In this document: piece after piece, positions 3,941 to 30,072 of the stretch | How the letters are laid out: each line of letters opens with the position of its first letter | Numbering within the stretch: the first letter of the stretch is position 1 | Virus record (IMG/VR): IMGVR_UViG_3300036716_000446 | Coordinates: 1-31,649 of that record | Direction: 5' to 3' (one strand) | Source: a virus | Length of the DNA stretch: 31,649 nucleotides | The notes under the pieces: model-generated | What the model saw: only the letters and a program-made list of their open reading frames with translations | The model's database searches: none | What the model was told of the DNA's origin: nothing | Program-made: the position numbers and the translations under genes

Positions 3941-4914
3941 CTGTTAAGAGTACCAAAAGCATCTAATTCGAATTCTACTTTGTCTGCAAGAGCCAAATGT
4001 ACTGACGCACCTGGATGTAAAAGGTCTCTACTTACCTGCTCTACGGTAGCGCCTGGGGGTGGGATCTTATCTTCCATTGGTTTTAATATCATATCACTCA
4101 TTGTATTTAAATCTGTCTCAGGATCGCCTGTTAATGTAATTCCAATCCCAGCCATGAAGTGATGGATAATATGAAGTTCATCATCTACTAGATTAGATGA
4201 GGATTCTTTAGACATATCTTCTAATGTATCTGATGTTCCGTTGATCCATGTGACAGGTATGTTCCAATGCTCAGCAAGCCTAATTATTGTTTTCATCATT
4301 AACATATGATGCCACTTCGCTATACCCATTGATTGATATAAAAAGAGAAGATCTTTTTCATCACCTGATGTATGCCTAGCACGGATTGCTGCTGGAATGT
4401 AATCTATATTCTTTATATTAACCGGTACTCCTGGCACACCTACTGATACGCCTGTTGAATTTTGTGAACCAGCTAATAAGATATGCTTGGGTGGTGTTCT
4501 CCAGAGCTTACTTAACTGTAAAAAATTAAAAGGTATGGCCTCTAATCTGCCACCATAAGTTGATGCGTTATAAAAAGGAATGCCTGTTCTTTCTTCTAAA
4601 ATGTTTTGAAATAGATCTCTCGAATGTAATCCTGGACCAACACCAACACATTCTGTAGAACATAAGATCCATTCATCAGGCAAGTCTGTTATTTCACGAT
4701 CAGATCTGAAACCAAGTGAATCAAATTTGTAAGTAACTGGATCAACGGTATCGTTATCATAATACTTCCACGTTGGTCCGTATTTTTCTTTTGCTTTACT
4801 GAACCATTCAAACGACTCGTGCAACATCCATCTATATTCCTCATTAGGATCTGCTTGATATGATATCAAGCCATGTTTTCCTAGTGTTACTTTATATAAG
4901 GGAACGTTATTCAT
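3937..4914 (-). CDS. SGNH/GDSL-hydrolase-like protein with an altered nucleophile block
   Basis: 325 residues. DSLGFRSD (about 65-72) followed by a hydrophobic strand, then VGVGPG, then YNASTYGGR, follows the order of SGNH acylhydrolases (NSLGFR, GDSxxxGxGV, NxxxxG). The C-terminal RDLLHPGASVH supplies the expected DxxHPG Asp/His pair. The first block reads CSTECVGVGPG where GDSFTFGxGV is usual, so the nucleophile would be Ser or Thr displaced by one position, or activity may be lost. It may cleave or transfer acyl groups, perhaps on surface glycans or acyl thioesters. It overlaps the crotonase by 8 bases and shares its late promoter. The fold is fairly likely; the activity is uncertain. Confidence 0.6.
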   Translation of the reverse strand: MNNVPLYKVTLGKHGLISYQADPNEEYRWMLHESFEWFSKAKEKYGPTWKYYDNDTVDPVTYKFDSLGFRSDREITDLPDEWILCSTECVGVGPGLHSRDLFQNILEERTGIPFYNASTYGGRLEAIPFNFLQLSKLWRTPPKHILLAGSQNSTGVSVGVPGVPVNIKNIDYIPAAIRARHTSGDEKDLLFLYQSMGIAKWHHMLMMKTIIRLAEHWNIPVTWINGTSDTLEDMSKESSSNLVDDELHIIHHFMAGIGITLTGDPETDLNTMSDMILKPMEDKIPPPGATVEQVSRDLLHPGASVHLALADKVEFELDAFGTLNS

Positions 4915-5668
4915 TAATGAACTTTGGTGGACGTTTCTCTAAATATGCAGCAAGGCCTTCATGAAGATCTTTTGATTCAATTTGCATCTCCAGAGCCCAC
5001 TCTGCATAAGATACTGCCTCGTCCATATTAGAATTTACTGTATGCCAAATAGAACCTTTAGTTCCTCGAACAGCTATAGGCCCATTGAAATTAGCAATTT
5101 TATGTGCGTATGCCATTGCTTGTTCATAAACATCACCATCACAAATCTTATTACATAGGCCTACTTTATCTAACCATTCAACATCATAGACTTCGCCCAT
5201 CATAAATTCCATTGTTCTATTATGACCTATCCTTTGTGTCAATTTAACCTGCATTGTTACAGCATTGAATCCTAATTTAGTTTCTGGACAGGCAAATTTA
5301 CTATTTTTATCTGCGAAAACAAAATCGCTTGCTAACAAGACACCAAACCCATCACCAATACAAACTCCTTTTATTGCTGATATAATTGGTTTAGGTGTAA
5401 CCATGTCACCGTCTGTTAGCATATTGCTCATGCCAGATGAAATGTCTCTGAAGCCTGTTTTAACATCGGCTCCTGCACTGAAGTGATCTTTGTCTGTTGT
5501 AATGACGAGAACCCTTGCTTCATCTTCATCTCTGAAATGAACAATGGCGTCATTGTATCCTGGGTAATAGGCCCTGTCTAAGATATTCATTGGACCTACT
5601 CCGTTTATTGTTAAAACGGCGACGTGATCGTCTTTTAATTCGTACGTGATTCTCTCACCAAACTCCAT
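4907..5668 (-). CDS. Enoyl-CoA hydratase/isomerase (crotonase) family protein
   Basis: 253 residues, full length for the family (about 260). The first oxyanion segment is FSAGADVK (63-70) and the second KGVCIGDGFGVLLASD (100-115). PETKLGF at 128-134 carries Glu129 at the usual acid position, and the C-terminal helix ends in EGLAAYLEKRPPKF, the common family ending. Crotonases act on acyl-CoA thioesters by hydration, isomerisation or hydrolysis. The subtype cannot be told, and the second catalytic Glu is not clear. The gene has a good ribosome site (TAGGAG) 17 bases after the preceding gene, and is followed with an 8-base overlap by the SGNH-like gene. A late promoter serves all three, which is odd for fatty-acid metabolism. 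It may be an auxiliary metabolic gene. Confidence 0.88.
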   Translation of the reverse strand: MEFGERITYELKDDHVAVLTINGVGPMNILDRAYYPGYNDAIVHFRDEDEARVLVITTDKDHFSAGADVKTGFRDISSGMSNMLTDGDMVTPKPIISAIKGVCIGDGFGVLLASDFVFADKNSKFACPETKLGFNAVTMQVKLTQRIGHNRTMEFMMGEVYDVEWLDKVGLCNKICDGDVYEQAMAYAHKIANFNGPIAVRGTKGSIWHTVNSNMDEAVSYAEWALEMQIESKDLHEGLAAYLEKRPPKFINE

Positions 5669-6109: not shown

Positions 6110-6385
6110 CTAATTGTCATGTACATTTAAGGCAATTATTGCGTAGTGTAGGACCTTAAGTAAGTCTGCTCTGGCATCTTCTGGTGTTCCTTTCTTGCCA
6201 TATCTTTGTGCATACTTTAAGATGTTTCCTATACAAAATCCTATTCCATGTCCTCCATCAATAATAAATTCAGTTGCCTGAAATTTATCTGAGGAGTAAT
6301 GTCCGTTGCCGTATGTTGCGTCGATGTAACGACGGAGCTCGTCTATGAGCTCCCCTTCGTTAAACTTATACTCTGGCTTAGTCAT
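6110..6385 (-). CDS. DUF3310-family small phage protein
   Basis: 91 residues from ATG 6385. This start overlaps the end of the CobS-like gene by 8 bases (GATGACTAA), the usual coupling here; a longer frame to 6442 lies inside cobS. The core FCIGNILKYAQRYGKKGTPEDARADLLKVLHYA matches the DUF3310 pattern (GNxxKYxxRxGxKxxxxxDLxKxxxY), with HY near the start. DUF3310 proteins are common in phages, often near nucleotide-metabolism genes; their biochemical role is not settled. This is the last gene before a terminator. Confidence 0.85.
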   Translation of the reverse strand: MTKPEYKFNEGELIDELRRYIDATYGNGHYSSDKFQATEFIIDGGHGIGFCIGNILKYAQRYGKKGTPEDARADLLKVLHYAIIALNVHDN

Positions 6386-7574
6386 CGTCTTCGATTTCAA
6401 AGTCTTCATGAATCTCCTGTTCCTTTTCAGTATTATCATCAAGTTCTACTGTTGGATCAACCTTGGTGTACAAATCAATGAATGCTTGTTTAGTATCATC
6501 ATCAAATCTGTTGACACATAGTTGAACTGCTTTCTTTTTGTCTCCAAAAACTGCATAAGCGTTAACGATGTGCTCCAATCTACGTGTTGAAATTAGCTCA
6601 TCAATAGCTCCTTCGTAGTAAGTTTTTCTTATTACGTCGGACCAAGTAACTAAGTGAGTTGCAAAACCTTCGTCTACATTGTTCACTCTTTCCATTTTCT
6701 TGATAACTATTTTCTTTTCCGTAGCCATTGTAGGGTACTCCTGCTCCACGGTGATCGCAAACCTTTCTAGGAATGCTTCGTCGAGTATGTTGGCACTTAT
6801 AAATTTGCCATCATCTGATCCTCGACCCTTCGTATTGGCGGTTGCCACTATGTTGAAGCCGGGAGCAGGAGTAACGGTTTCGCCTGTCTTCTTGTTGAAA
6901 TAAGGCTTCCCCTCAAGGATGGCTTGTAAGCACATCAACTTGTTTGAACCCCTATCAATTTCATCAAGAATGAGAACAGCGCCCCGCTTCATCGCGGTGA
7001 GGACGGGCCCTTCTCTATACACAACGTTACCGTCAATTAGAGTATTGCCACCGATCAAATCGTCCTCATCAGTTTCAATACTAACATTTACTCGTATGGC
7101 TTCTCTTTTAAGAGCTGCACATACTTGTTCAGCCATTGTGGTTTTACCATTACCTGATAAGCCACTAATGAATATTGGATAAAACATGTTACCTTGTAAC
7201 ACCTTTTTCAAATCTTTATAAAAACCAAACGGTACGAATGTTTTATCCTTCGCTACAATTAAGTCCTCGACTTCAACTTTAAGTTTAGCTTGGACAAGCT
7301 CTGCTGGGAGCTGTGTTTCAACTACTTCAAGTGGAACTCTAGGAGCTGCCACTGGAGCTGTTTGAACTGCTGCCATACCTGAACCTTGAAACATGGGTGC
7401 TAGATTATAAACACCTCTGTCCACTTTGTAGGTTGGTTTGTTAAGTAGCCAGGCTGGAAAACCAATTCCTAAGCCAGTAGCTATTTCCATAATTTGCTTA
7501 CGGGTAAAAACACCTGTGCCATTATCATTGGCTTCTAGTTCTTCCTGTAATCTTGCTCTATCTTCTTGTTTCAT
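6378..7574 (-). CDS. cobS: CobS/MoxR-like AAA+ ATPase
   Basis: 398 residues. The N-terminal 100 residues hold a small helical domain (KQIMEIATGLGI) and a Pro/Ala linker. The AAA+ core follows: Walker A GLSGNGKTT at 138-146, Walker B GAVLILDEIDRG, sensor 1 NIVATANTKG, and the Arg region EAFLERFAITVE. The C-terminus is strongly acidic (ending EDDD). MoxR/CobS ATPases work with a metal-ion-binding (MIDAS) VWA partner, here the CobT-like gene upstream. In cobaltochelatase the pair inserts cobalt; in phages lacking CobN the pair more likely remodels another complex. The gene has its own early promoter and a GAGG ribosome site. A cobalamin role is not shown. Confidence 0.85.
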   Translation of the reverse strand: MKQEDRARLQEELEANDNGTGVFTRKQIMEIATGLGIGFPAWLLNKPTYKVDRGVYNLAPMFQGSGMAAVQTAPVAAPRVPLEVVETQLPAELVQAKLKVEVEDLIVAKDKTFVPFGFYKDLKKVLQGNMFYPIFISGLSGNGKTTMAEQVCAALKREAIRVNVSIETDEDDLIGGNTLIDGNVVYREGPVLTAMKRGAVLILDEIDRGSNKLMCLQAILEGKPYFNKKTGETVTPAPGFNIVATANTKGRGSDDGKFISANILDEAFLERFAITVEQEYPTMATEKKIVIKKMERVNNVDEGFATHLVTWSDVIRKTYYEGAIDELISTRRLEHIVNAYAVFGDKKKAVQLCVNRFDDDTKQAFIDLYTKVDPTVELDDNTEKEQEIHEDFEIEDDD

Positions 7575-7656: not shown

Positions 7657-10146
7657 TCATGCTACTAACTCTATGATTTTGTTAAGGAACAGTCTCTGAC
7701 TTGTTTTTCCTTTGTTAAAAGCTCTAAATCCTCTCATCAAATCGCCTTTCTTACTGGATTTTACTTCCAATTCTTGGTTTTTGATTTTAAGATCATCTGC
7801 TCCTTTCATTAGGAACCTTTGATCAAATCCAAATTTGTCTTCAACCATCATAAACTTATCCTTTAAACAACCTTTCCAATCAGTTGAACTCCATTCGTGT
7901 GAAGGCCAGCTGTTTGTATAATGATCTGGATCATTGCTGTCCATCCATTCATTCTTAACGAACTCATTCCAAAAGGCATTTTTCTTACCATCAATAATAT
8001 GGAAGTTTATTAATCTTGATCCTGTGGTTTGTTGGTACCACTCTAACAATGTTGGAGTAGACATTTCGTTTCTTGAGTACCTGCTTACTTTTCCACAATC
8101 AAGAATTATTGTTGCACTACCATCTTTAATTGCAACCTTTTCATCATAAATGCTTCTAGCCCTAGGCTCCATTGGCTCACCTTTATAATCTTTCCTACTT
8201 ACATAACCTAAGCTGTCTGTTGCTCCACCATCTGTTAAAAATATTGTACTTAATATTTCAACGTTATATCTTTTTCTAAATCTTTTTGCCACTTCCTTAC
8301 CAACAATAATTGCTGAGTTAAGAGGTGTGCTACCTAAACTAAAATGTCTGTTTTTAATATAGCCCCAATACTCATTCTCGCTATAGTCATTGTAGTATCT
8401 TCTGTGATCCCAACCACATTTGATAACTGTTAAATACTTCATTGCATTTAAGTATTCATTCTTTGAACATAGTGAGGACAACATGTGGACCAAGCAAAAA
8501 CTGCTGTTGTCAACTATCATTTGTCCGTCTTCAGCAGTCTTAATTGCTTCTCTTTGCTTAGTGTACCAGTGGTTAGCTTTTTCTTCATCACTGTAACGAT
8601 CATTAATTCCGCTTGTACTAAAACCATATACATCAAATGGAATGTTGACCTTCCTACAAAATGCTGCCACTGTCATCATTTGATCTACTGTTCCTGACAT
8701 GTTCTTGTACATACTTCCTGATAAGTCTACGAACATTAGGATGCCATGGTTTTTACCGTTGGGTACTAATAAAGCTCTTTGGAATAAATCTTCTGTTACT
8801 TTATAAGCCCAAAGTTTATCCTCATTCAACTTGCCTGTCTTGGCTTCTGAGGTTTTCTGATAAGCAGTTGCTGCTTTTCTAAGCTCAAATTGTTGTGCCA
8901 TACTATTAATAATTGGAGTCTGTGTTCTGTTCCACGTCTCATAAGACTTAGTAGCTACGTCATACACTTCATTAACAGGTATTGTACGCTCTTGCCAACG
9001 ACCGTCTTTGTCTCTGTAACCTTGTTGTAAGTCAATTGATTCCGCCCAATCATATAATTCGTTCATTGGGACTATAAAATCTTCTGGATTTAAATTTGGT
9101 GCCTTAACATATACAAGAGTGGATGCGTCCTGATCAACTAATTCTTTTTCGTTGGCTCTAAAACTGTTATCACTAAATGATTCTCCAGTTTCCAATGCCT
9201 CTTGAAGCTTATCTAATTTTTCTTTAAGTTCTTTGTCCTTTTTTAATTGTTCAGCTGCTTCTTTTTTAGCATCTTCTTCAGCTTGTCTCTCTTCGGGAGT
9301 CATCGCTAACCATCTTTCGTATTCTTCGTCTCTTTTCTTTTGTTTTTCTTCACGCTCAGCTTCAAGTCTAGCGTCTTCCTCTTCTTCAGTTTCATTTTCA
9401 TACTCATCTGGATCTACTGGAGTACCATAACTATCTGATTCTACTTCATTGATGTCTGGTTTTTCTTCTGTTTGTTCTTGTGATTGCTGGCTTTCACCTT
9501 GTTCCATCTGTTCGCCATCATCATCTTGTTGGAATCTATCAGGCATCATTTGATCAATCATTGATTCAAGTTCGTCTTTTTTCTCTTCCAAGTCTTTCTG
9601 ATTGGCTTCAAACAATTCATTTGCCAAACGTTCAACGTCTTCCCAAGTTTCAGTATTATAAATTCTGTCTACTAAATCTTTTTCCTCATCACTAAATACG
9701 ACACCCATCATGTGGCCTACTTTATAATGTAAGTTCACTCTATCAATTAATGGGAGTTTGTTGATGTCTAAATCTTTTATTCCAAAAAAGTCTCCATCAA
9801 CTAATTCTTTATAGCCTTTGAAAAAGCTACTAACCAATCCAGGATATCTTTCTTTAACCTTACGTTCAATCCTTACATCTTCAACCACGTTAAGGAAGTT
9901 TTTCATAGCCTTGTTATCACATACTGCGTCATGCCATCCTTCTGCAGGTGTTTCATGAGCATGTCCTACTTCATGGCCAATGAATAAGTCATAAAGTGGT
10001 GAAGACATCTTCTTCCAAAGTGGAAGGTATAAAGTCCTAGCTTTAACATCAAATGCCGCAGTTGGCATTTTAGGATCATGTACTATTGAAATGTCTTCTG
10101 TTGCTAAACATTTTGCTAGTATTGATTTGGATTGTATTTGGTTCAA
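7657..10146 (-). CDS. cobT: CobT-like VWA-domain protein with an HEVGH metallopeptidase-like motif
   Basis: 829 residues, TTG start at 10146 after a GAGG ribosome site; no ATG fits. Residues 58-62 are HEVGH, an HExxH zinc site, followed by NVVEDVRIERKVKERYPG, which may give the third ligand. Residues about 170-330 are a long acidic/Gln-rich coiled-coil linker (EEE and KKE runs). The C-terminal third is a von Willebrand A domain with MIDAS motif DLSGSM near 470, and later TDGGATDS. The order resembles CobT, the partner of CobS, which follows directly with its own promoter. Together they probably form a MoxR-VWA type remodelling machine; the HExxH motif suggests proteolysis or metal binding. 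Weak TTG initiation may keep its level below that of CobS. Confidence 0.85.
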   Translation of the reverse strand: MNQIQSKSILAKCLATEDISIVHDPKMPTAAFDVKARTLYLPLWKKMSSPLYDLFIGHEVGHAHETPAEGWHDAVCDNKAMKNFLNVVEDVRIERKVKERYPGLVSSFFKGYKELVDGDFFGIKDLDINKLPLIDRVNLHYKVGHMMGVVFSDEEKDLVDRIYNTETWEDVERLANELFEANQKDLEEKKDELESMIDQMMPDRFQQDDDGEQMEQGESQQSQEQTEEKPDINEVESDSYGTPVDPDEYENETEEEEDARLEAEREEKQKKRDEEYERWLAMTPEERQAEEDAKKEAAEQLKKDKELKEKLDKLQEALETGESFSDNSFRANEKELVDQDASTLVYVKAPNLNPEDFIVPMNELYDWAESIDLQQGYRDKDGRWQERTIPVNEVYDVATKSYETWNRTQTPIINSMAQQFELRKAATAYQKTSEAKTGKLNEDKLWAYKVTEDLFQRALLVPNGKNHGILMFVDLSGSMYKNMSGTVDQMMTVAAFCRKVNIPFDVYGFSTSGINDRYSDEEKANHWYTKQREAIKTAEDGQMIVDNSSFCLVHMLSSLCSKNEYLNAMKYLTVIKCGWDHRRYYNDYSENEYWGYIKNRHFSLGSTPLNSAIIVGKEVAKRFRKRYNVEILSTIFLTDGGATDSLGYVSRKDYKGEPMEPRARSIYDEKVAIKDGSATIILDCGKVSRYSRNEMSTPTLLEWYQQTTGSRLINFHIIDGKKNAFWNEFVKNEWMDSNDPDHYTNSWPSHEWSSTDWKGCLKDKFMMVEDKFGFDQRFLMKGADDLKIKNQELEVKSSKKGDLMRGFRAFNKGKTSQRLFLNKIIELVA

Positions 10147-10255: not shown

Positions 10256-11824
10256 TTACATGCTTAAGTCAAAAGATATGAGGAATTCTCGTCCACCAGC
10301 ACTATATTCTGGCAATATTTCGAACCGTTTGTTGAAAACGTCTCTGACTTGTAACCCTACCCTGTATCTGGGTCCTAAATAGTAACCCAGGGTTAGGTCT
10401 AATGTTGATACATTATCTATAGGACGGCCCGCCCAATCCAATCCTTTATCAAACTCACCTATATATGATAGGCCATAGTCTAATTTTCCAAACATGTTTG
10501 AGTAGGTTAATCTAGTCTTATACTTGGCTGCTTGGATCTTATCTGTATCTGTGTACTTCAACATCATTTTAAAGTTCTGGAATGACTTGGTGAAATTAAT
10601 GCCTTGGGATTTATATTTGCCTGTGTTGATGTATTGATAATCACTGAAATTAAAATCTATTCCATCACTAAAATCATAATGCCAAATTGTAATGTCTTTC
10701 CAACCAACTTCTAGTCCCACTCCTTTCTCAGCATTTAAAAGTGGATTAGGTTTTACTAATGCATCACCATAACGTTCGTATAAATTTGGAATCCTATAAC
10801 TATTTCCTAATGAAACTCTAAAATCTTTTACTTCTATACCTACTCTACCTGTTTGAACATCATCTTCAAAACGATATCCTACTCCAAGTTTATATGGAAT
10901 TACAGAAGATCTTTCTAGTGCCTTCTGTTCTGTGTGCCAATTAAAATAGACTCCTGATCTCCAGGCGTTATATCTTACAGGGATAGGAGATCTAAAGTAG
11001 TAGTCGTAATCTGATTGTTGGGCTGTCACACCTGCTAAGAAATTCTTATATTTGTACTTCGCATCTGCAAATAGTCTAGAACTTTTAGCTCCCCAGCCTG
11101 TATTATGTTGAGCGCTGTTTAAATTATAGCCTACTGTAAGCCAATCATTTCTAATAGATATATCTGTTTTATATCCAGATTGATTACAATCATTATATTC
11201 AATAGGACTAGGTAGACAATCATCATAATCGTAAGAGTAATCTTGAGACACCATAACAACATCGAAGCCAGCATAATTTGCTTTGGTTTTAAGTGTTGTA
11301 TTATCATACCAATCTTCTTCTGTGTTTGTTGTTTTAACAGAGCCTATTGATCCTTTATACCTTGCTATTTGAAACCACTCGTTGCCACCTGTTATGAACT
11401 GTGAGCTATCACTCCCTTTATAAAAGACATGTTTTTCAAATGTATCTTCTATAAGAATTGTTCCTGCCATTGAGGAGCTTCCAAACAATACACCATTAGG
11501 TCCTGTGATTTTCTTATAGTCTTGCCATGTAGGTAAGTCTATTCCGAAATCATACCACCCTGAAGCTGGATCGTTAACGGGTATCCCGTTTCTATATACT
11601 GCTGTATGTTTTGAGTCTGTGCCGTTTAAACCTACTGCTGCAAAGCCCCCTGGGCCGCCAGGAGTATATACTTTTGTTGATTCAACTGCCTCTATTGCTG
11701 AGTTGTCGTGTGCTGGATCTGAATATCCCTCAGAAACCTTTGCTCCTACTACTATTGTTTCTTCTACTTCTGCTAATGCTATAGTAGGAAATAGCACTAA
11801 CAACATTATAATAAACTTCCTCAT
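10256..11824 (-). CDS. TonB-dependent outer-membrane receptor (BtuB-like), compact
   Basis: 522 residues. Residues 1-18 are a signal peptide ending ALA. EETIVVGA at 21-28 is a TonB box. A short plug follows, with YRNGIPVNDP, IDLPTWQDYKKITGPNGVLFGSSSMAGTILI, the family pattern (iDGxpvn, veRIevlrGPxsxlyGsxaxgG). The rest alternates hydrophobic and aromatic residues in strands, with RIPNLYERYG and a BtuB-like last part (DVFNKRFEILPEYSAGGREFLISFDLSM region). The terminal residue is Met rather than Phe. It is about 90 residues shorter than BtuB, with a reduced plug. Such receptors import cobalamin or iron chelates; in a phage it could alter host uptake, or mask or replace a phage receptor. It starts within the stop of the 41-aa exported peptide gene (ATGA). 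Confidence 0.88.
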   Translation of the reverse strand: MRKFIIMLLVLFPTIALAEVEETIVVGAKVSEGYSDPAHDNSAIEAVESTKVYTPGGPGGFAAVGLNGTDSKHTAVYRNGIPVNDPASGWYDFGIDLPTWQDYKKITGPNGVLFGSSSMAGTILIEDTFEKHVFYKGSDSSQFITGGNEWFQIARYKGSIGSVKTTNTEEDWYDNTTLKTKANYAGFDVVMVSQDYSYDYDDCLPSPIEYNDCNQSGYKTDISIRNDWLTVGYNLNSAQHNTGWGAKSSRLFADAKYKYKNFLAGVTAQQSDYDYYFRSPIPVRYNAWRSGVYFNWHTEQKALERSSVIPYKLGVGYRFEDDVQTGRVGIEVKDFRVSLGNSYRIPNLYERYGDALVKPNPLLNAEKGVGLEVGWKDITIWHYDFSDGIDFNFSDYQYINTGKYKSQGINFTKSFQNFKMMLKYTDTDKIQAAKYKTRLTYSNMFGKLDYGLSYIGEFDKGLDWAGRPIDNVSTLDLTLGYYLGPRYRVGLQVRDVFNKRFEILPEYSAGGREFLISFDLSM

Positions 11825-11946
11825 AACGACTCTTTACATATAGCTCCTTCTGCATACCAACATATATCGGCTCCTGCAGACTGTGAGAATGCTACCAAAG
11901 CAATAGCTATTAAGACTATTGCTATCCATTTACTTTTTTTGTTCAC
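11821..11946 (-). CDS. 41-aa exported two-cysteine peptide, GTG start
   Basis: The frame starts with GTG at 11946, 6 bases after AGAGG, and its TGA overlaps the receptor ATG (ATGA). Residues 1-26 are a clear signal peptide (KKSKW, hydrophobic core, AGA before Asp). The mature part would be only about 15 residues, DICWYAEGAICKESL, with two cysteines that could form a disulfide. There is no lipobox. It overlaps the end of the ClpP-like gene by 17 bases. Ribosome site, signal peptide and coupling on both sides argue for a real gene. It may be a receptor partner or a periplasmic inhibitor; the function is unknown. Confidence 0.65.
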   Translation of the reverse strand: MNKKSKWIAIVLIAIALVAFSQSAGADICWYAEGAICKESL

Positions 11947-12547
11947 TCTTGCCTCTTAATAACGTTTTTGGTTTCTTTGATCTTATTTTCTTGGCCACTT
12001 TATTTCTTTTATCTAATCTTTTCTTAACTTCTGTTGGGTCCATCCAAAAGTCTTTCCCATCTATCATGTCATTTATTTCTTGTTTGTCTAAGAATCCTTT
12101 GTAAACTGAATTAAATAAATGTCTAGCCCATTTATCATCTGCAATAACTGAGGCTAATTGTTCGTTTCCTTTGCCCCAGTTACCTGAACTGTAAGTATGG
12201 AACATGAAGTGACTATGTTCTGAGACTTCACATACATCAGCACATAAAAATATTAGAGTAGCTGCTGACATACACATACCTTCTACGGATGCTATAATAG
12301 TTGCTGGGCTATCAGATATTGTTCTCATCAACTGAATAGCTGTAAATATATCTCCTCCATTAGAATTTATATGTATAATGACTGCATCATTCTCAGTTGA
12401 ATTCCTCATCAACTGATTCCAATCTTGATAGTCTTTTGCCTGTGTTATGTCGCCTGATATATAAAAATCAAATATACGAGCAACTGGCTTTTCATAAGCG
12501 TTGCTCGCGTTTGGTGGTGGGGTTTGTATTGGTTTAGATTCGCTCAT
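11930..12547 (-). CDS. ClpP-like serine protease (S14 family)
   Basis: 205 residues. IHINSNGGDIFTAIQLMRTI is the ClpP oxyanion loop; the nucleophile lies in GMCMSAATLI and the catalytic His in HFMFHTYSSG, in the right order and spacing. The C-terminal tail is strongly basic (KKIRSKKPKTLLRGKSEQKK), unlike host ClpP. ClpP-type proteases in phages serve in capsid maturation or in degrading host proteins. The gene is not beside the capsid genes, so a host-directed role is also possible, perhaps with a host Clp ATPase. It overlaps the preceding gene by 14 bases. Confidence 0.88.
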   Translation of the reverse strand: MSESKPIQTPPPNASNAYEKPVARIFDFYISGDITQAKDYQDWNQLMRNSTENDAVIIHINSNGGDIFTAIQLMRTISDSPATIIASVEGMCMSAATLIFLCADVCEVSEHSHFMFHTYSSGNWGKGNEQLASVIADDKWARHLFNSVYKGFLDKQEINDMIDGKDFWMDPTEVKKRLDKRNKVAKKIRSKKPKTLLRGKSEQKK

Positions 12548-12923: not shown

Positions 12924-13565
12924 CTAGGTGTTCTTCCTTTGGTGTTTCTTAACCTTCTTCTGCAAGGCTTTAAGGGCACGTTCTAATTTAACTCTAGTAA
13001 CTCTCATAGTAAAGTTCTGACCTAGCATGTGGTCAAACTCATGTAATATTACACGAGCGGAGACACCTGAATACTCTTCTGCTATCTCTTCTCCTTCTTC
13101 ATCAAAGTATTGTATGGCACAAGAGGTTGGTCTTTTAACCATTAAGTAAAGTCCTGGAAAAGATAGACAGCCTTCTCTAATAGACTCTTGTTCAGGGCCG
13201 ACACCTATTATTTTAGGGTTAATAAAAATCTTTTCAAAGTCTCCTTTGCCGTTTCCTAATACGAAACAAGCAGCATTAATGCCTACTTGATTAGCAGACA
13301 AACCAACACCACCATCGCGGTACATAACCTCGAGTAGTCTTGATTTAATTTCTTTAGGATCTAACCCACCATGTTCATCCATATCTTCAAAACGAAATGG
13401 TGCTGGAACTCTACTTAAGAAAGGATCATTAAACTTTAATAACTCTAACTCATCAGCAGATTTAATTTCCGGAGACTTATATCTCTCGATTCCATTTCCA
13501 TCTAAAAGAATGGGTTCTAATTCATCCTGCATCTTTTCCGAGATGCTTGTAGGTGTCTTTTTCAT
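12924..13565 (-). CDS. def: Peptide deformylase with N- and C-terminal extensions
   Basis: 213 residues against about 165 in bacteria. All three metal-site motifs are present: GVGLSANQVG, EGCLSFPG (Cys ligand) and ILHEFDHMLG (two His ligands and the catalytic Glu). It removes the formyl group from new proteins. The first 45 residues are extra, and the last 25 are basic (KALQKKVKKHQRKN). The start at 13565 lies inside the SET gene, overlapping it by 44 bases. A strong AGGAGAGGAG site is 13 bases upstream. Deformylases occur in several marine T4-like phages, where they may speed processing of fast-made phage proteins. Confidence 0.93.
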   Translation of the reverse strand: MKKTPTSISEKMQDELEPILLDGNGIERYKSPEIKSADELELLKFNDPFLSRVPAPFRFEDMDEHGGLDPKEIKSRLLEVMYRDGGVGLSANQVGINAACFVLGNGKGDFEKIFINPKIIGVGPEQESIREGCLSFPGLYLMVKRPTSCAIQYFDEEGEEIAEEYSGVSARVILHEFDHMLGQNFTMRVTRVKLERALKALQKKVKKHQRKNT

Positions 13566-13908
13566 ATTTAATAAATAACTCCTCTCCTGCTTTTATATTT
13601 TCAGTGGTAAAGAAATGCGCTTTAGGACCTTCGATCTCTGCAAATATATTTGGTGTCTCACTATGATTTATAAATCCTCCTAGTGGAGTACGTTCCCAAT
13701 ATTTATCGCCCCATTTCTCTCCGTCCCAATCGTGCATGACAAACACATGAGATAAACCTAAGTCTGTCCCTTGTTTTATGTCTTCTTTCGCGAACAATCC
13801 TTGTCCATGGACATCACTGTCCCCAATTCGTAAACTCGGTGGTAAAGGCATGTAAGAGTCTTCATCAAACTCCACTGACTTTGACGCAAGTGTTACCATT
13901 TCTTCCAT
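13522..13908 (-). CDS. Small SET-domain protein (putative protein lysine methyltransferase)
   Basis: 128 residues. DVHGQGLFAKEDIKQGTDLG is the N-SET segment (HGxGlfAxxxIxxGt), GGFINHSETPN carries the NHS motif that binds S-adenosylmethionine, and AGEELFIKY is the terminal GEElxxxY motif. These three cover a minimal SET domain with no added domain. It would methylate a lysine in a protein, but the target cannot be told. Its ATG overlaps the glutaredoxin stop by one base (TAATG), and it overlaps the deformylase gene by 44 bases, an unusually long overlap for this window. Confidence 0.85.
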   Translation of the reverse strand: MEEMVTLASKSVEFDEDSYMPLPPSLRIGDSDVHGQGLFAKEDIKQGTDLGLSHVFVMHDWDGEKWGDKYWERTPLGGFINHSETPNIFAEIEGPKAHFFTTENIKAGEELFIKYEKDTYKHLGKDAG

Positions 13909-16865: not shown

Positions 16866-17339
16866 TTAGCCCTCGTATATTGCTGAATTAGCCCCATGTT
16901 CCCTTACTTCACAAGCGACACAATAGCATCGCCCTCCTGTTAATTCTTTTACCAAGTCATTAGCAAAATGGAATGCTTGCTCTGCAAACTTCTCACAGCC
17001 AACACCATTCATAACTACTACTTCTGTTAATCCTTTTTCTTCTAGCTTTAAAAAATCTTGTAATGCAGGATCGTCTTTATCAACTGCATGTTTATGATCA
17101 AAGTTATTTTTTAACCATGCTTTTAAGTCCTTCAAGCCTCCAAAATCCACTACCCAATTCTTATTATCTAAACGATCACAACCAAATTTAAAACTAAACG
17201 ACAAAGCGTAACCATGTAGTAAACTACAATGACTGTGCGTTGCTGCATGTTGTCTAAAAACTGCTGATAAGCCTTCTTCGTGGCCATATGTTTTTGTTGA
17301 ATAGTGTTTATAATCTATATACGGATCTGGTCTGTTCAT
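16866..17339 (-). CDS. queD: 6-carboxytetrahydropterin synthase (QueD), long form
   Basis: 157 residues, T-fold. HSHCSLLHGYALSF (35-48) holds the catalytic Cys38 and zinc His42; the second His of the usual HGH is Tyr44, as I recall for a long-form QueD subgroup. VVDFGGLKDLK and FDHKHAVDKDDP are the substrate-binding and catalytic His segments, and CEVREHGANSAIY contains the terminal Glu. It makes 6-carboxytetrahydropterin from dihydroneopterin triphosphate, the FolE product. It starts inside the glycosyltransferase stop (ATGA) and ends 2 bases before gene 47. Confidence 0.9.
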   Translation of the reverse strand: MNRPDPYIDYKHYSTKTYGHEEGLSAVFRQHAATHSHCSLLHGYALSFSFKFGCDRLDNKNWVVDFGGLKDLKAWLKNNFDHKHAVDKDDPALQDFLKLEEKGLTEVVVMNGVGCEKFAEQAFHFANDLVKELTGGRCYCVACEVREHGANSAIYEG

Positions 17340-18749: not shown

Positions 18750-18810
18750 ATAAAATAGTCTCCATTATTATAAAGGTAAACATTACTATAAAAACTAACC
18801 ACTCGTTCAT
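18739..18810 (-). CDS. Possible 23-aa hydrophobic membrane peptide
   Basis: The ATG at 18810 overlaps the dpdA-like stop as ATGA, the same coupling as confirmed genes here. The frame encodes MNEWLVFIVMFTFIIMETIL plus YVS, one membrane-spanning stretch, and ends inside the start of the T-fold gene. It fills what would otherwise be a 57-base gap, rare in this operon. It is too short to be sure. Confidence 0.35.
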   Translation of the reverse strand: MNEWLVFIVMFTFIIMETILYVS

Positions 18811-20075
18811 TCAAACATCTCCTCTAGACTTACTGGCATTTCTTTAGCTACTGCCATGGACTTCATAGCTCCACCTAAATATTGATTTGTTTCCCACGCC
18901 ATATAATCATCTTTATTTTTTACATTATATAGGTTCCTAAACTGTCCATCAAGTTTCATCTTACGAGTAAACTTTAAAAGGGCATCCTTATCTAACAACA
19001 TCTGTTCTAAGTGTTGCATGAAGTTTCTAATAGACATTAGTATAAAAGCTGTCCTCACATACAACCACGTATTCAAGTTGCCGTATTCTTCTTTAGCTTT
19101 CATACTCGGGGTGTTTAATAATTTATGAAATTCGTCTATTTCTACACCCAAATTGATCGTTTCCATACAGTTTTGATACATTTCGCGATACAAATTGGAC
19201 ATCTGTCTATTAAACTTAGTTGTGCCTTGTCCCATGTAGAATAACCCTGTCTCAACCGCCCTGCTGTGTGTAGTAGAGTCATAAGATATCTCTACGTTAT
19301 CATATAAACCGTTCTGACAAAAGACTAAGTAAGGAACAATACGTCTTATTGAACCTACTCCTAATATATGTAAGTGCATCTTATCTCTTGGCCATGTCTT
19401 TGCTACTTCTGATGCTATAAATGATCTTTTAACATCTTCTAGTGGTCCTGTTCCAAGAGCAGCTGCTCCCATTGCCACACCACCAATCCTAGTGTGCCAT
19501 TCACTTGGTATCTCTTCCATTAAACATTCATACCATCTCAAATAAGTCTCTACATCATTACCTTGTAAGATAATATATGGTTCACAGCTGCTACCTTCTT
19601 CTTCAAAAATTTCTAATTGTCTTTTAACATTGCGTCCAGTTTTTCTTGCTAGCTCTTCATAGTTTTCGTGATCAAAGAACCTTTGTTTAACATCGTTCCT
19701 ATCTGAGCGTTCTCCTGTTAGTATAACAGGTATCTCATCAAAGCACATACCAACATTAGCTCCTTTAGCCTGGTTCCTATATACTTTTTCTTTTAATTCG
19801 TCTGTAATTGTCATTCCTTGTGTAACAATTTGTAGTCCACCTGAGTCTGCATGTATGCTATGTGCTGCGTCATGATATGGTTTGAATCTATCACCAAAAG
19901 AATGTTCTGTGTGTGCATTATAAAGTAATGAAAACTTATGACTGAATTGATCTTGTACTAATTTTTTTATTAGCATAGACACAATGCTTGTATTGGTTTC
20001 ATCAAAAGCAATATTAGGATTACTCAAACGCATGTATGAGGTTCCTGATACTACATAATCTAAGGTGTGTTTCAT
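18807..20075 (-). CDS. dpdA: DpdA-like DNA guanine transglycosylase (TGT superfamily)
   Basis: 422 residues. ADSGGLQIVTQG at 76-87 matches the TGT DSGGFQ motif with catalytic Asp77. MCFDEIP (110-116) matches the substrate-binding FDE, GGVAMGAAALG the GGLAVGE-like strand, HILGVGS the HLLGVG, and ISYDSTTH places the nucleophile at Asp266. The CxCxxC zinc motif of tRNA enzymes is not seen. With queD, queE and folE in the same phage operon, DNA rather than tRNA is the likely target: DpdA enzymes swap guanine in DNA for a 7-deazaguanine, blocking restriction. It starts inside the exonuclease stop (ATGA). Confidence 0.82.
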   Translation of the reverse strand: MKHTLDYVVSGTSYMRLSNPNIAFDETNTSIVSMLIKKLVQDQFSHKFSLLYNAHTEHSFGDRFKPYHDAAHSIHADSGGLQIVTQGMTITDELKEKVYRNQAKGANVGMCFDEIPVILTGERSDRNDVKQRFFDHENYEELARKTGRNVKRQLEIFEEEGSSCEPYIILQGNDVETYLRWYECLMEEIPSEWHTRIGGVAMGAAALGTGPLEDVKRSFIASEVAKTWPRDKMHLHILGVGSIRRIVPYLVFCQNGLYDNVEISYDSTTHSRAVETGLFYMGQGTTKFNRQMSNLYREMYQNCMETINLGVEIDEFHKLLNTPSMKAKEEYGNLNTWLYVRTAFILMSIRNFMQHLEQMLLDKDALLKFTRKMKLDGQFRNLYNVKNKDDYMAWETNQYLGGAMKSMAVAKEMPVSLEEMFE

Positions 20076-20602
20076 GTCTTTAAAATTTCTATAAGCATAT
20101 CTGCCTCAGCTTTTGCATCATCTAAAGCATTATGGTTGTTGGCTTTTGGTAAACGTTTATCTAATACATTCATTAAAGTTCTTAGACAATAAATATCCCA
20201 GAACTTCCAAGGGTATTTTTCTCTGGCATCTCTATTAGAATTCCAACCTGATAATGTCATAGCGTTTTCCATTATAACAACATCAAAATTGGCACCCATA
20301 CCCCAAATGTTTCCTTCTTTAAAAAACGTAACGAATTTATCTATTGCTTCATCTAAAGGCAAAGGATCTACTGTTAGTGCCTGTCTTGCTTCCATGTCTT
20401 GTTGAGCCCACCACTCTACTGTTAGTGGATCTATATGTAAGCCTGCCTCTTTACAAGTCTTGGCATCTACATTTACATAAAATTCATCTACTATTTCTAA
20501 ATTCTCAATTGCTACTGCTCCTATTGAAACAATAGCTGCATTAGATCTAGTTGATAATGTTTCTAAATCTAATACTACTTGTCTACTATGCGTGTCCACC
20601 AT
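20072..20602 (-). CDS. DEDDh 3'-5' exonuclease (DexA/Rv2179c-like)
   Basis: 176 residues. VVLDLETLST carries the first Asp and Glu, WGMGANFDVVIM the second Asp, and HNALDDAKAEA the His and final Asp of the DEDDh set. This resembles the single-domain 3'-5' exoribonuclease family that includes T4 DexA relatives. It may trim RNA or single-stranded DNA. AGGAA stands just before ATG; it overlaps folE by 17 bases and dpdA by 4. A role in the modification pathway is only suggested by position. Confidence 0.88.
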   Translation of the reverse strand: MVDTHSRQVVLDLETLSTRSNAAIVSIGAVAIENLEIVDEFYVNVDAKTCKEAGLHIDPLTVEWWAQQDMEARQALTVDPLPLDEAIDKFVTFFKEGNIWGMGANFDVVIMENAMTLSGWNSNRDAREKYPWKFWDIYCLRTLMNVLDKRLPKANNHNALDDAKAEADMLIEILKT

Positions 20603-21269
20603 TCATTTCCTGTAATTTTATATTGTCCATAAACTCTTCTTTTAGTGAAGGGTTCGTCTTTAGTTCACCTTTTAGAACTGTTGTTTGTGTGCTACTATTA
20701 CTAGCTCTAATGCCTCTGTTCTCACAACACCCATGTCTTGCTTTAATATAAACACCTACTGCCTTAGACTTTGTAAGTTTCTCAATTCTATAAGCTATCA
20801 TTTCACAAAGCTCTTCTTGTAAGTGGCCACGTGATGCTAAATGCTGTGCCACTCTAGTATATTTAGACAGTCCAATAACTTCTTCTCCTGGCATACATGC
20901 TACATAACATACACCATTCACTGGTTGGTGATGATGTGAACACATACTTTTTAAATCCATTCTAACTGTAATCAATTGATCATACTTTCCATCATTAGGA
21001 AATGCTGTTATTCTAGGATCGTCGTCATATCTTCCACCCATTATTTCTAGTATATACATTTTTGCTAAACGTCTAGCTGTGTCTATACTGTTAGGATCGT
21101 TGTGCCTGTCTATAATTAATGCATCTAAAACACCTTCGAACTTTTCTGTTAGTTCATCGATTAGATCTGATTTTTCAACTGCACTTATATATTTTGATAT
21201 GTTATCTGCTGCATAGTAACGCTTACCATCTACTTCTAAACGTTGCTTAATCTTATCACTTACACTCAT
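20586..21269 (-). CDS. folE: GTP cyclohydrolase I (FolE)
   Basis: 227 residues from ATG 21269, chosen because GGAG precedes it and it overlaps the upstream TAA by one base (TAATG). Zinc and catalytic motifs: SMCSHHHQPVNG (Cys and His), GLSKYTRVAQHLASRGHLQEEL, and ARHGCCENRGIR (second zinc Cys). Converts GTP to dihydroneopterin triphosphate, the first step to 7-deazaguanine. N-terminal HNDPNSIDTARRLAKMYI matches the family RxGLxxTPxRVAxxY helix loosely. Confidence 0.95.
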   Translation of the reverse strand: MSVSDKIKQRLEVDGKRYYAADNISKYISAVEKSDLIDELTEKFEGVLDALIIDRHNDPNSIDTARRLAKMYILEIMGGRYDDDPRITAFPNDGKYDQLITVRMDLKSMCSHHHQPVNGVCYVACMPGEEVIGLSKYTRVAQHLASRGHLQEELCEMIAYRIEKLTKSKAVGVYIKARHGCCENRGIRASNSSTQTTVLKGELKTNPSLKEEFMDNIKLQEMNGGHA

Positions 21270-21691
21270 TATTTTTTCTCCCAAGGAAATACTATCCATT
21301 GTTTATTATTATAGAGCCTTTCACCTTCAAAGTCAATACCCATGTTACCCTTTTTGGAGTAAAGTACAGCCCATTGACTTTCTGGAAAAATGTTCCTAAT
21401 TGATCCTATTGTTAATCCACTATCACATATATCGTCTACAAATAATATATCGTTTGGATCTTCTGTTGATTTTAATGCAACTGAAAGTGTATCTTTTTTG
21501 TTGCCATCTCTAGTTTGCCATTGTAAAGGTTCAAAAGGAATGTCTAATGCGTGGGATAGAATAACTCCTGGAACAAGACCTCCCCTACTAACACCTACAA
21601 TTTTTTTATAATTTCTTTCACCTATTTGTAGAGCCATAAGAAGACATATATTATACATCTCCTTCCAACCTACATATATATTGTCTGTCAT
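21269..21691 (-). CDS. Purine-type phosphoribosyltransferase
   Basis: 140 residues from ATG 21691, which overlaps the upstream stop as ATGA. VGVSRGGLVPGVILSHAL is the pyrophosphate loop and ILFVDDICDSGLT the PRPP-binding motif (two acidic residues, then DSGxT), as in Gpt/Hpt and related enzymes. It would join a purine base to PRPP. In this operon it could salvage the free guanine that DpdA releases from DNA, giving GMP. Substrate preference cannot be read from the sequence, and a xanthine or hypoxanthine enzyme is also possible. Confidence 0.88.
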   Translation of the reverse strand: MTDNIYVGWKEMYNICLLMALQIGERNYKKIVGVSRGGLVPGVILSHALDIPFEPLQWQTRDGNKKDTLSVALKSTEDPNDILFVDDICDSGLTIGSIRNIFPESQWAVLYSKKGNMGIDFEGERLYNNKQWIVFPWEKK

Positions 21692-22064: not shown

Positions 22065-22943
22065 TTATGTACCCCATGCGTTGCCAAATAATGTTATATG
22101 TAGTCGAGGGCTAAACTTATACCCTGTCTGCATACAAGCCTCTGCTACATCTTTTTCTGTTAGAGTTTGTTGTTCTAATGTAGCGCCTTCAGGCATACAA
22201 TAAACAGCATCTAACTTAACTCCTGCTTCTGTGTATGCTTCTACAAATTCATCTACTTCTTTGAAGTCTGACATATCTCTCACCACAAATTTGTTATATA
22301 AGTGACTATTTTCTACCTTGTTCATTCCCTCTAATACCTCTGGGACTAGTGCGTCAAACTGTTCTTCGCCTGATAAACTTAACTTAGGAGAAGTGCTCCA
22401 AGTTATATGTAAATCTTTACCTTCATTATTAAAATAGTCTATCAACTGTTGTTGTAAATCTTGTGTCCCATTAGTTTCGTAAGTAACATTCTGTAAACCA
22501 ACTTCTCTACACATATCCAAGAGGGCTGGCCAACACCTTTGCCAACCCAATAGAGGTTCACCACCTGTTATGACTAAATGGATATCGTTCTTCTCATCAA
22601 ACCTACCATTAGGTAATAGTTTAACAATACGATCGAAAACTTCTTCTAATGTTTCTGTTAATTGTAAATGTTTATATTTCATAGCCCAACTGGCAGAACT
22701 ATCACACCCTACCGGTGTAACAGGCAATTCTGCTATGGATTTATATGCTTCGGGATGTGTTTTATCTGCTTTAGGATCTGTAAAGTAAGGCATTTCCTCG
22801 ACAGGAATTATATTATCTCTCTCCTGTCCAAAACCTCTACACTCAAAGTTGCAACCAAAAACTCGTAAGAATATACTAGGAACACCTACGAATCTTCCTT
22901 CACCCTGTACGCTATAAAATACTTCGCTATATCTTATTTTCAT
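22065..22943 (-). CDS. queE: 7-carboxy-7-deazaguanine synthase (QueE), radical SAM
   Basis: 292 residues. SEVFYSVQGEGRFVGVPSIFLRVFGCNFEC gives the QueE start. Cluster cysteines are C31, C35 and C80 (CX3C then 44 residues), followed by DSSASW in place of CDTxxAW. LVITGGEPLL is the SAM-binding GGEP motif, and YETNGT a second QueE motif. Converts 6-carboxytetrahydropterin to 7-carboxy-7-deazaguanine. The 44-residue loop before the third cysteine is much longer than usual. The first gene of the operon, its ATG is 8 bases from the -10 box with no ribosome site, so the mRNA is probably leaderless. Confidence 0.92.
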   Translation of the reverse strand: MKIRYSEVFYSVQGEGRFVGVPSIFLRVFGCNFECRGFGQERDNIIPVEEMPYFTDPKADKTHPEAYKSIAELPVTPVGCDSSASWAMKYKHLQLTETLEEVFDRIVKLLPNGRFDEKNDIHLVITGGEPLLGWQRCWPALLDMCREVGLQNVTYETNGTQDLQQQLIDYFNNEGKDLHITWSTSPKLSLSGEEQFDALVPEVLEGMNKVENSHLYNKFVVRDMSDFKEVDEFVEAYTEAGVKLDAVYCMPEGATLEQQTLTEKDVAEACMQTGYKFSPRLHITLFGNAWGT

Positions 22944-27056: not shown

Positions 27057-27380
27057 TTAAAACTGTACCGATACTCCACACCCACACGCTGATGACTGTT
27101 GAGGATTATTAAATTGAAACCCTTCGTTTAATCCGTCCCTCATCCAACTAATAGTAGTACCATCTAAATAATTTTCTGATAAGGAGCATACCCACATCTT
27201 AAATTTTCCAAAATCTATTTCGATATCACTCTCTTCTAGTGGTGCGTCAGCATAATCAAATTCATATTCGAATCCTGCACACCCTCCGCCTATTAAGGCA
27301 AACCGTATGCCTTGTCTTTTATTACTCTCTACCTTTTCGATAGCATGTAGTAAGGCATCATCAGTAAAATCTATATTCAT
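27057..27380 (-). CDS. iscA: A-type Fe-S carrier (IscA/ErpA-like)
   Basis: 107 residues. Cys34 in GGGCAGFEYEF and the pair ACGCG near the C-terminus form the three-cysteine set of A-type carriers. It takes Fe-S clusters from a scaffold and passes them to apo-proteins. It overlaps iscU by 4 bases (ATGA), so both are made together. Possible clients in this phage are QueE (4Fe-4S) and other enzymes. Confidence 0.92.
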   Translation of the reverse strand: MNIDFTDDALLHAIEKVESNKRQGIRFALIGGGCAGFEYEFDYADAPLEESDIEIDFGKFKMWVCSLSENYLDGTTISWMRDGLNEGFQFNNPQQSSACGCGVSVQF

Positions 27381-27805
27381 TCAGGTCCTCTATTATGTTT
27401 ACGATCCGTTTTCTTCTGTTCCCAATGCACAATTGCTTGATTAATGCTAGCCTCTGCTAATACAGAACAATGTAACTTAATAGGCGGTAACTCTAATGCT
27501 TTTGCTATATCTCTATCTTTAATAAGTTTAGCCTCTTCAATCGTCCTACCCTTAAGCATGTCCACAAACAATGTTGAACTCGCTATTGCTGAGCCACAAC
27601 CATAAGTCTTAAATTTCACATCTAAAATTGTATCCGTTTCCGGATCTAATTTGAGATCTAACTTCATGACATCTCCACAAGCTGGTGCTCCTGTCATTCC
27701 AGTGGCAACATCTGGATCATTAGGATCAAATCTGCCTACTGCATGTTTCTCTGGGTTTTTTAATACTGATTCAAATCTTTCTACTACCTGTTTACTGTAC
27801 GCCAT
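27377..27805 (-). CDS. iscU: Fe-S cluster scaffold (IscU/NifU-N-like)
   Basis: 142 residues. GAPACGDVMKL (first Cys with the usual Asp two residues on), TYGCGSAIASS (second Cys), and LPPIKLHCSVLAEASI (third Cys with the LPPxKxHCS chaperone-binding motif) are all intact, so it should be active. No IscS, HscA or ferredoxin is in the window; it probably uses host sulfur donation. It has both an early-type promoter and an overlapping TATAAATA box. Ribosome site GGAGG, 5 bases before ATG. Confidence 0.95.
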   Translation of the reverse strand: MAYSKQVVERFESVLKNPEKHAVGRFDPNDPDVATGMTGAPACGDVMKLDLKLDPETDTILDVKFKTYGCGSAIASSTLFVDMLKGRTIEEAKLIKDRDIAKALELPPIKLHCSVLAEASINQAIVHWEQKKTDRKHNRGPE

Positions 27806-30064: not shown

Positions 30065-30072
30065 TATTTATA
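30065..30072 (-). promoter_or_regulatory. Late promoter (TATAAATA) of gene 23
   Basis: An exact box on the minus strand. Start expected near 30059, leader about 38 bases with AAGGAG near its end. It sits directly after the stop of 22 and allows much higher capsid than scaffold expression. Confidence 0.85.

Follow-up and report, generated by a model that had tools for sequence, protein, structure and literature searches.

A truncated, BtuB-like TonB-dependent receptor carried by uncultured T4-like phages as a putative auxiliary gene for corrinoid import

A complete gene for a TonB-dependent receptor of the BtuB kind lies among the genes of a T4-like phage in IMG/VR record IMGVR_UViG_3300036716_000446; the whole stretch analysed, positions 1 to 31,649 of that record (31,649 nucleotides), is referred to here as the window. 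From sequence comparison and structural modelling, we consider it most probable (roughly 0.6) that this is a putative auxiliary gene for TonB-driven import of a corrinoid, i.e. a B12-type cofactor; B12 is limiting for many marine bacteria. During infection the receptor would be exported and built into the outer membrane of the host, where the cobalamin-type cofactor would bind the plug apices with the aid of a calcium cage in extracellular loops L2 and L3; host TonB-ExbB-ExbD would pull the TonB box and bring the ligand into the periplasm, from where host proteins would handle it, and the phage would thereby have more of a scarce cofactor taken up for enzymes of the host or its own. The features of the receptor and its flanks are these:

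10256 to 11824, minus strand: BtuB-like TonB-dependent receptor gene, 522 aa
11771 to 11824, minus strand: signal peptide (residues 1-18), MRKFIIMLLVLFPTIALA, read directly from the sequence; a low-confidence N-terminal stretch in the model
11741 to 11767, minus strand: TonB box region VEETIVVGA (residues 20-28), with E21, E22 and V25 nearly invariant among 71 representatives of the viral family
11435 to 11740, minus strand: shortened plug domain (residues 29-130), from Pfam PF07715 and the model, ~17 residues fewer than in E. coli BtuB
11540 to 11581, minus strand: plug apex 2 (residues 82-95) with invariant WYDFG, at the position of the substrate-binding apical loop in the BtuB alignment
11300 to 11326, minus strand: extracellular loop L2 with invariant N167-E169-D171-N175; E169 and D171 correspond to BtuB D193 and D195 by alignment
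11186 to 11239, minus strand: extracellular loop L3 with invariant Y196, Y200, D201, C203 and C213; Y200 and D201 correspond to BtuB Y229 and D230 by alignment
10262 to 11431, minus strand: 22-stranded beta-barrel (residues 132-521), from AlphaFold2 secondary structure with strands counted by hand
11821 to 11946, minus strand: 41-codon open reading frame with a GTG start and a signal-peptide-like sequence, its stop overlapping the receptor start (ATGA)
11930 to 12547, minus strand: upstream flank, ClpP-like protease (phrog_1827)
7657 to 10146, minus strand: downstream flank, CobT-like phage protein (phrog_459, 'peptidase') with no Pfam match
6378 to 7574, minus strand: downstream flank, CobS-like AAA+ ATPase (phrog_249)

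The receptor frame begins with ATG and contains no internal stop, and downstream of the signal peptide follows EVEETIVVGA, which we read as the TonB box. The Pfam Plug family PF07715 matches at 25.6 bits (gathering cut-off 23.9; E 1.8e-5); because this match spans only model positions 32-107 of 107, the plug appears to be genuinely short, and in the alignment with E. coli BtuB the ~17 residues that are lacking belong to the first plug strand/helix segment. C203 and C213 of loop L3 probably form a disulfide loop. The first-pass annotation had described a complete TonB-dependent receptor with signal peptide, TonB box, short plug and intact frame, and each of these elements is confirmed. It had also made the assignment depend on a plug and barrel in the predicted structure, and AlphaFold2, supplied with an 84-sequence alignment, models both: reduced plug elements inside a barrel of 22 strands (hand count from the DSSP line), with a mean pLDDT of 91.5 and a pTM of 0.90. 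With only four sequences the pLDDT was 25 and the model unusable.

A likeness to B12 transporters is evident from the model and from the sequence. E. coli BtuB is the first fold match in the VIA ranking (Z ~37, rmsd 2.2-2.6, 462-488 residues aligned), and B12 transporters, either BtuB or Bacteroides BtuB, fill the top 14 rows; below E. coli BtuB stand the Bacteroides B12 transporters at Z ~33 and the heme receptor ChuA at ~32. A profile of the receptor searched against PDB sequences recovers E. coli BtuB with E 1.9e-26, the next family following at ~1e-3. Of all 18,950 NCBIfam models, only TIGR01779 (9.4e-18) and PRK10641 (2.7e-13), both for B12 receptors, match the window protein. Its scores are far below the curated cut-offs (64.1 bits against 599.7 for TIGR01779, 49.3 against 836 for PRK10641), and for this reason we do not class it as a BtuB member; the bacterial relatives tested likewise fall under the TIGR01779 cut-off, at 291-473 bits. 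These nearest bacterial relatives are BtuBs, ~16-20% identical to the phage receptors; the four that were tested score best with TIGR01779, and a cobalamin riboswitch is present just upstream in 9 of 10 sources tested. No cobalamin riboswitch was found in seven phage sources.

A further point of likeness is a set of loop residues. When phage proteins were aligned with BtuBs and with other receptors, taken from E. coli K-12 and five bacterial genomes, the signature D/E193, D195, Y/F229, D230 proved to be present in 36 of 36 phage proteins and 14 of 14 BtuBs, vs 0 of 31 other receptors. Positions 193, 195 and 230 are reportedly among the five calcium-cage aspartates of BtuB (Chimento et al. 2003), the remaining two presumably being D179 and D241. 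By the BtuB alignment, the D179 position is not conserved in the phage proteins, and at D241 they have N, S or D, varying with the alignment. In BtuB the five-aspartate calcium cage adjoins the site of cobalamin binding, and simulations show cobalamin touching N228, Y229 and D230 (PMC7360065).

The phage receptors are monophyletic (support 100) and sit on a long branch, far from the bacterial copies. The best tree found joins phage receptors and BtuBs in a single clade, its likelihood slightly above that of the free search (p-AU 0.596); the tree allows this grouping without proving it, the placement of the long phage branch not being firm. The hint of cobalamin in the first-pass annotation had been drawn in part from the CobS/CobT-like neighbours: given the NCBIfam matches, the fold and the calcium/cobalamin-loop signature, it is much stronger than was supposed, whereas its CobS/CobT basis has fallen away. 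Both neighbours (phrog_249 and phrog_459) belong to the general gene stock of T4-like phages, and they lend no support since CobN is absent and the receptor has different neighbours in its other genomic contexts. A cobalt chelatase was rejected, with no CobN in 21 related records and no Pfam match for the CobT-like protein.

The pattern of conservation bears on function. Mean identity reaches its family maximum in plug apex 2 (0.76) and is 0.63 in the TonB box; most extracellular loops, which are short, lie at ~0.45-0.60 vs 0.37 for the strands, and periplasmic turns mostly at 0.2-0.4. Such a pattern agrees with selection on ligand binding and TonB coupling. No TonB gene was found in 21 receptor-bearing phage records, and the energy would therefore be supplied by the host. 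Together, the BtuB-type models, the fold, the loop signature, and the conserved TonB box and plug apex make nutrient uptake, one of several roles first suggested for the gene, the leading reading.

A TonB-dependent importer descended from a BtuB-like ancestor could instead have altered its specificity towards another ligand, be it a degraded corrinoid, a siderophore, heme or some other tetrapyrrole. This is rather unlikely, and evidence can be cited on both sides. The invariant WYDFG of plug apex 2 is specific to the family and absent from BtuB, identity to bacterial BtuBs is a mere ~16-20%, ChuA comes next in the fold ranking at Z ~32, and the phage ribonucleotide reductase is of the iron-dependent class I, with Fe-S assembly-like genes recognised by eye in the window at 27057-27805. 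Against another ligand stands the calcium/cobalamin-loop signature, common to BtuB and seen in none of the 31 other receptors; moreover, the window protein matches no non-B12 NCBIfam receptor model, unlike the long variant L175, whose best match is a hemoglobin/lactoferrin model (2.5e-10).

TonB-dependent receptors are also well known as phage receptors, and a phage-encoded copy could serve to keep TonB-dependent phages or colicin-like toxins out, by titrating TonB or by altering the outer membrane through receptor swapping, or act as a decoy in shed vesicles. The strong conservation of the TonB box would suit such a device, which would have to engage host TonB given that no TonB gene was found in the 21 phage records, and FhuA-T5 entries occur among the fold matches. 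We find it improbable: the loops, besides being short, mostly exceed the strands in conservation (~0.45-0.60 vs 0.37), the opposite of what an arms race would lead one to expect; the ligand-facing plug apex, the most conserved part, fits ligand binding instead of a decoy; and TonB titration alone needs no conserved ligand or calcium site. The superinfection block and the decoy, both proposed at the outset, fit less well for the same features of the loops.

The gene belongs to the phage. The window carries a gp23-type major capsid protein, a tail tube, a ClpP-like protease and other T4-like core genes, so that a lytic lifestyle is plausible from gene content; no tRNA genes were found across the window. 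The nearest isolates by gp23 are Melnitz, a phage of OM43 (70.5%), and HTVC008M, a phage of Pelagibacter (68.5%), which point to a marine habitat, and the receptor carriers would form a large group of uncultured, probably marine T4-like phages; a search of deposited phages found no receptor match in Melnitz or HTVC008M. With successively broader query profiles, contig scans of IMG/VR gave 6, 140 and 257 relatives, and an extra scan of viral contigs with the long receptor variant gave 35 loci. We inspected 158 viral loci, among up to 257 contigs with relatives: the receptor frame is complete at 144, the others running off the contig end, and every copy not so interrupted is intact. Lengths after dereplication range from 491 to 676 aa. 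The receptor genes occupy at least four genomic contexts amid T4-like core genes:

L001-L017: context 1, ClpP-like/CobT-like
L018-L027: context 2, membrane protein upstream, gene clusters c32/c20/c18 downstream
L029-L036: context 3, gp32 region (gp32, like some of the other gene names, assigned by eye)
L038-L082: context 4, UvsW helicase region

Pairwise dN/dS is ~0.15-0.24 (Nei-Gojobori, own script), and the receptor is maintained between phage genes by purifying selection. Chance is excluded by the intact, conserved relatives that over 140 further viral contigs carry. Host contamination, a concern raised in the first-pass annotation since receptors of this class are normally bacterial, and one that mislabelled Salmonella btuB contigs in the phage collection might encourage, can be dismissed, as can a chance bacterial gene fragment, given T4-like genes within ~110 bp on both sides, a monophyletic family (support 100) far from bacterial copies, and complete copies in more than 140 independent contigs, including a 161-kb T4-like record (G026) in which a close gp23 and the receptor occur together. 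The family was not found by tblastn in 50,697 deposited phage records, where the matches were the mislabelled Salmonella contigs and distant, very weak ones. Two of the deposited records, AFYI01000005.1 and AGRM01000004.1, are apparently Salmonella chromosome contigs, with btuB adjoining 16S rRNA, and would therefore yield false 'phage btuB' matches. The receptor family also occurs on contigs of 217-340 kb (L179, L180 and L188) and may extend to jumbo phages.

Expression late in infection had been suggested as well, and the promoter regions do not favour it: the T4-type late motif TATAAATA precedes the window gp23 gene (30065-30072), whereas none lies within 300 bp upstream of the receptor gene, and the motif is found in just 4 of 109 distinct regions upstream of receptor genes. 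In L002-L005 and most of L009-L017, a small secreted protein gene lies directly upstream of the receptor; the full-length proteins (147-164 aa, clusters c41/c78) combine a signal peptide with a glycine-zipper-like stretch. In the window the gene is reduced to a remnant of 41 codons with two cysteines (11821-11946, minus strand), the signal peptide of which resembles that of the secreted protein in L002-L005.

Given a putative corrinoid importer, we looked at what the cofactor would serve. The phage ribonucleotide reductases tested are class I and not B12-dependent, which removes the most obvious use a phage would have for the cofactor, and a need for B12 through a class II enzyme is unsupported. 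In L008, L014 and L017 a radical SAM gene starts 12 bp downstream of the receptor, and in the two of these proteins that were scanned the B12-binding domain PF02310 matches below the Pfam cut-off. Radical SAM genes lie beside or near the receptor at these positions:

L008, 5377 to 6840: radical SAM gene
L014, 9557 to 11005: radical SAM gene
L017, 9497 to 10945: radical SAM gene
L031, 14107 to 15837, minus strand: radical SAM gene
L036, 15235 to 16938, minus strand: radical SAM gene

Homologues also occur in records G002, G004, G005 and G026, with two each in G002 and G005. Strong homologues are present in 4 of 21 receptor-bearing vs 0 of 25 receptor-free T4-like records, a contrast with a one-sided probability of ~0.04 by our own arithmetic on related, fragmentary records. 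A general enrichment of PF02310 with the receptor is unconvincing (7 of 20 vs 5 of 26 records, one of the 26 being receptor-bearing); one radical SAM subfamily alone is specific to receptor-bearing records. The link between the receptor and B12-binding radical SAM proteins is suggestive only. That T4-like phages run a corrinoid route of their own, in which a minimised BtuB feeds a phage cobalamin-dependent radical SAM enzyme, is a speculative and unlikely proposal; if true, the route and its enzyme would make vitamin B12 a virus-controlled resource.

Judged by homology and model, the phage protein is best described as a TonB-dependent receptor that resembles BtuB but is truncated and phage-adapted. 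It shares with BtuB of E. coli K-12 and Burkholderiales the fold (Z ~37), the TonB box, the plug apical loops, a C-terminal barrel that aligns to the last strand and the calcium/cobalamin-loop residues 193, 195, 229 and 230. It differs from E. coli BtuB in being phage-encoded, in a precursor of 522 vs 614 aa and in lacking the first plug strand/helix segment, and further in its very short extracellular loops, WYDFG in plug apex 2, the invariant L3 cysteine pair, scores below the curated cut-offs and a cobalamin riboswitch undetected in seven phage sources. The only clear match in the BFVD viral structure library is A0A8D9FQQ5, which comes from an uncultured marine phage and is presumably the Mar_Mega_1 protein. 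It too is a TonB-dependent receptor on a marine phage, but at 805 aa in BFVD, 11% identity and a TM-score of 0.62 it is of SusC type and not of the BtuB-like family. A putative SusC TonB-dependent receptor has been reported in marine megaphage Mar_Mega_1 (PMC9723777). In phage T5, whose Llp with FhuA (PDB 8a60) is among the fold matches, a phage likewise interferes at a TonB-dependent receptor, but there a small lipoprotein, Llp, blocks the host receptor (superinfection exclusion), whereas here the phage encodes the receptor. Cyanophages carry the phosphate-binding protein PstS as an auxiliary metabolic gene, likewise a phage-supplied component of host transport that relieves nutrient limitation; PstS is a periplasmic binding protein, whereas the present protein is an outer-membrane TonB-dependent transporter.

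Our search, which covered open papers, turned up no account of a phage BtuB; an earlier annotation may exist in supplementary tables or subscription papers. Neither btuB nor TonB is named in the main text of a survey of virus-encoded metabolic genes across the global ocean (PMC11360552). Surveys of auxiliary metabolic genes probably miss the family because the window receptor matches no PHROG family and the family was not found in deposited phages or described in the open papers searched. If phages do install a B12-type importer, infection would change the cofactor uptake of cells, and an outer-membrane active transporter would join the known kinds of phage-carried function. A naturally minimised TonB-dependent transporter of ~500 residues with a truncated plug would also help in the study of how the plug and TonB open the channel, an unsettled question.

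Several other genes of the window, all on the minus strand, merit mention. An enoyl-CoA hydratase/crotonase family gene (4907-5668; PF00378, E 1.2e-33) is conserved at related loci. By eye, 16866-17339, 18807-20075, 20586-21299 and 22065-22943 form an apparent 7-deazaguanine DNA-modification set with QueD-, TGT/DpdA-, FolE- and QueE-like members; 13522-13908 encodes a small SET-domain-like protein flanked by peptide-deformylase-like and glutaredoxin-like genes; and the Fe-S cluster assembly-like genes at 27057-27805 are an adjoining pair, IscU/NifU-like and IscA/ErpA-like.
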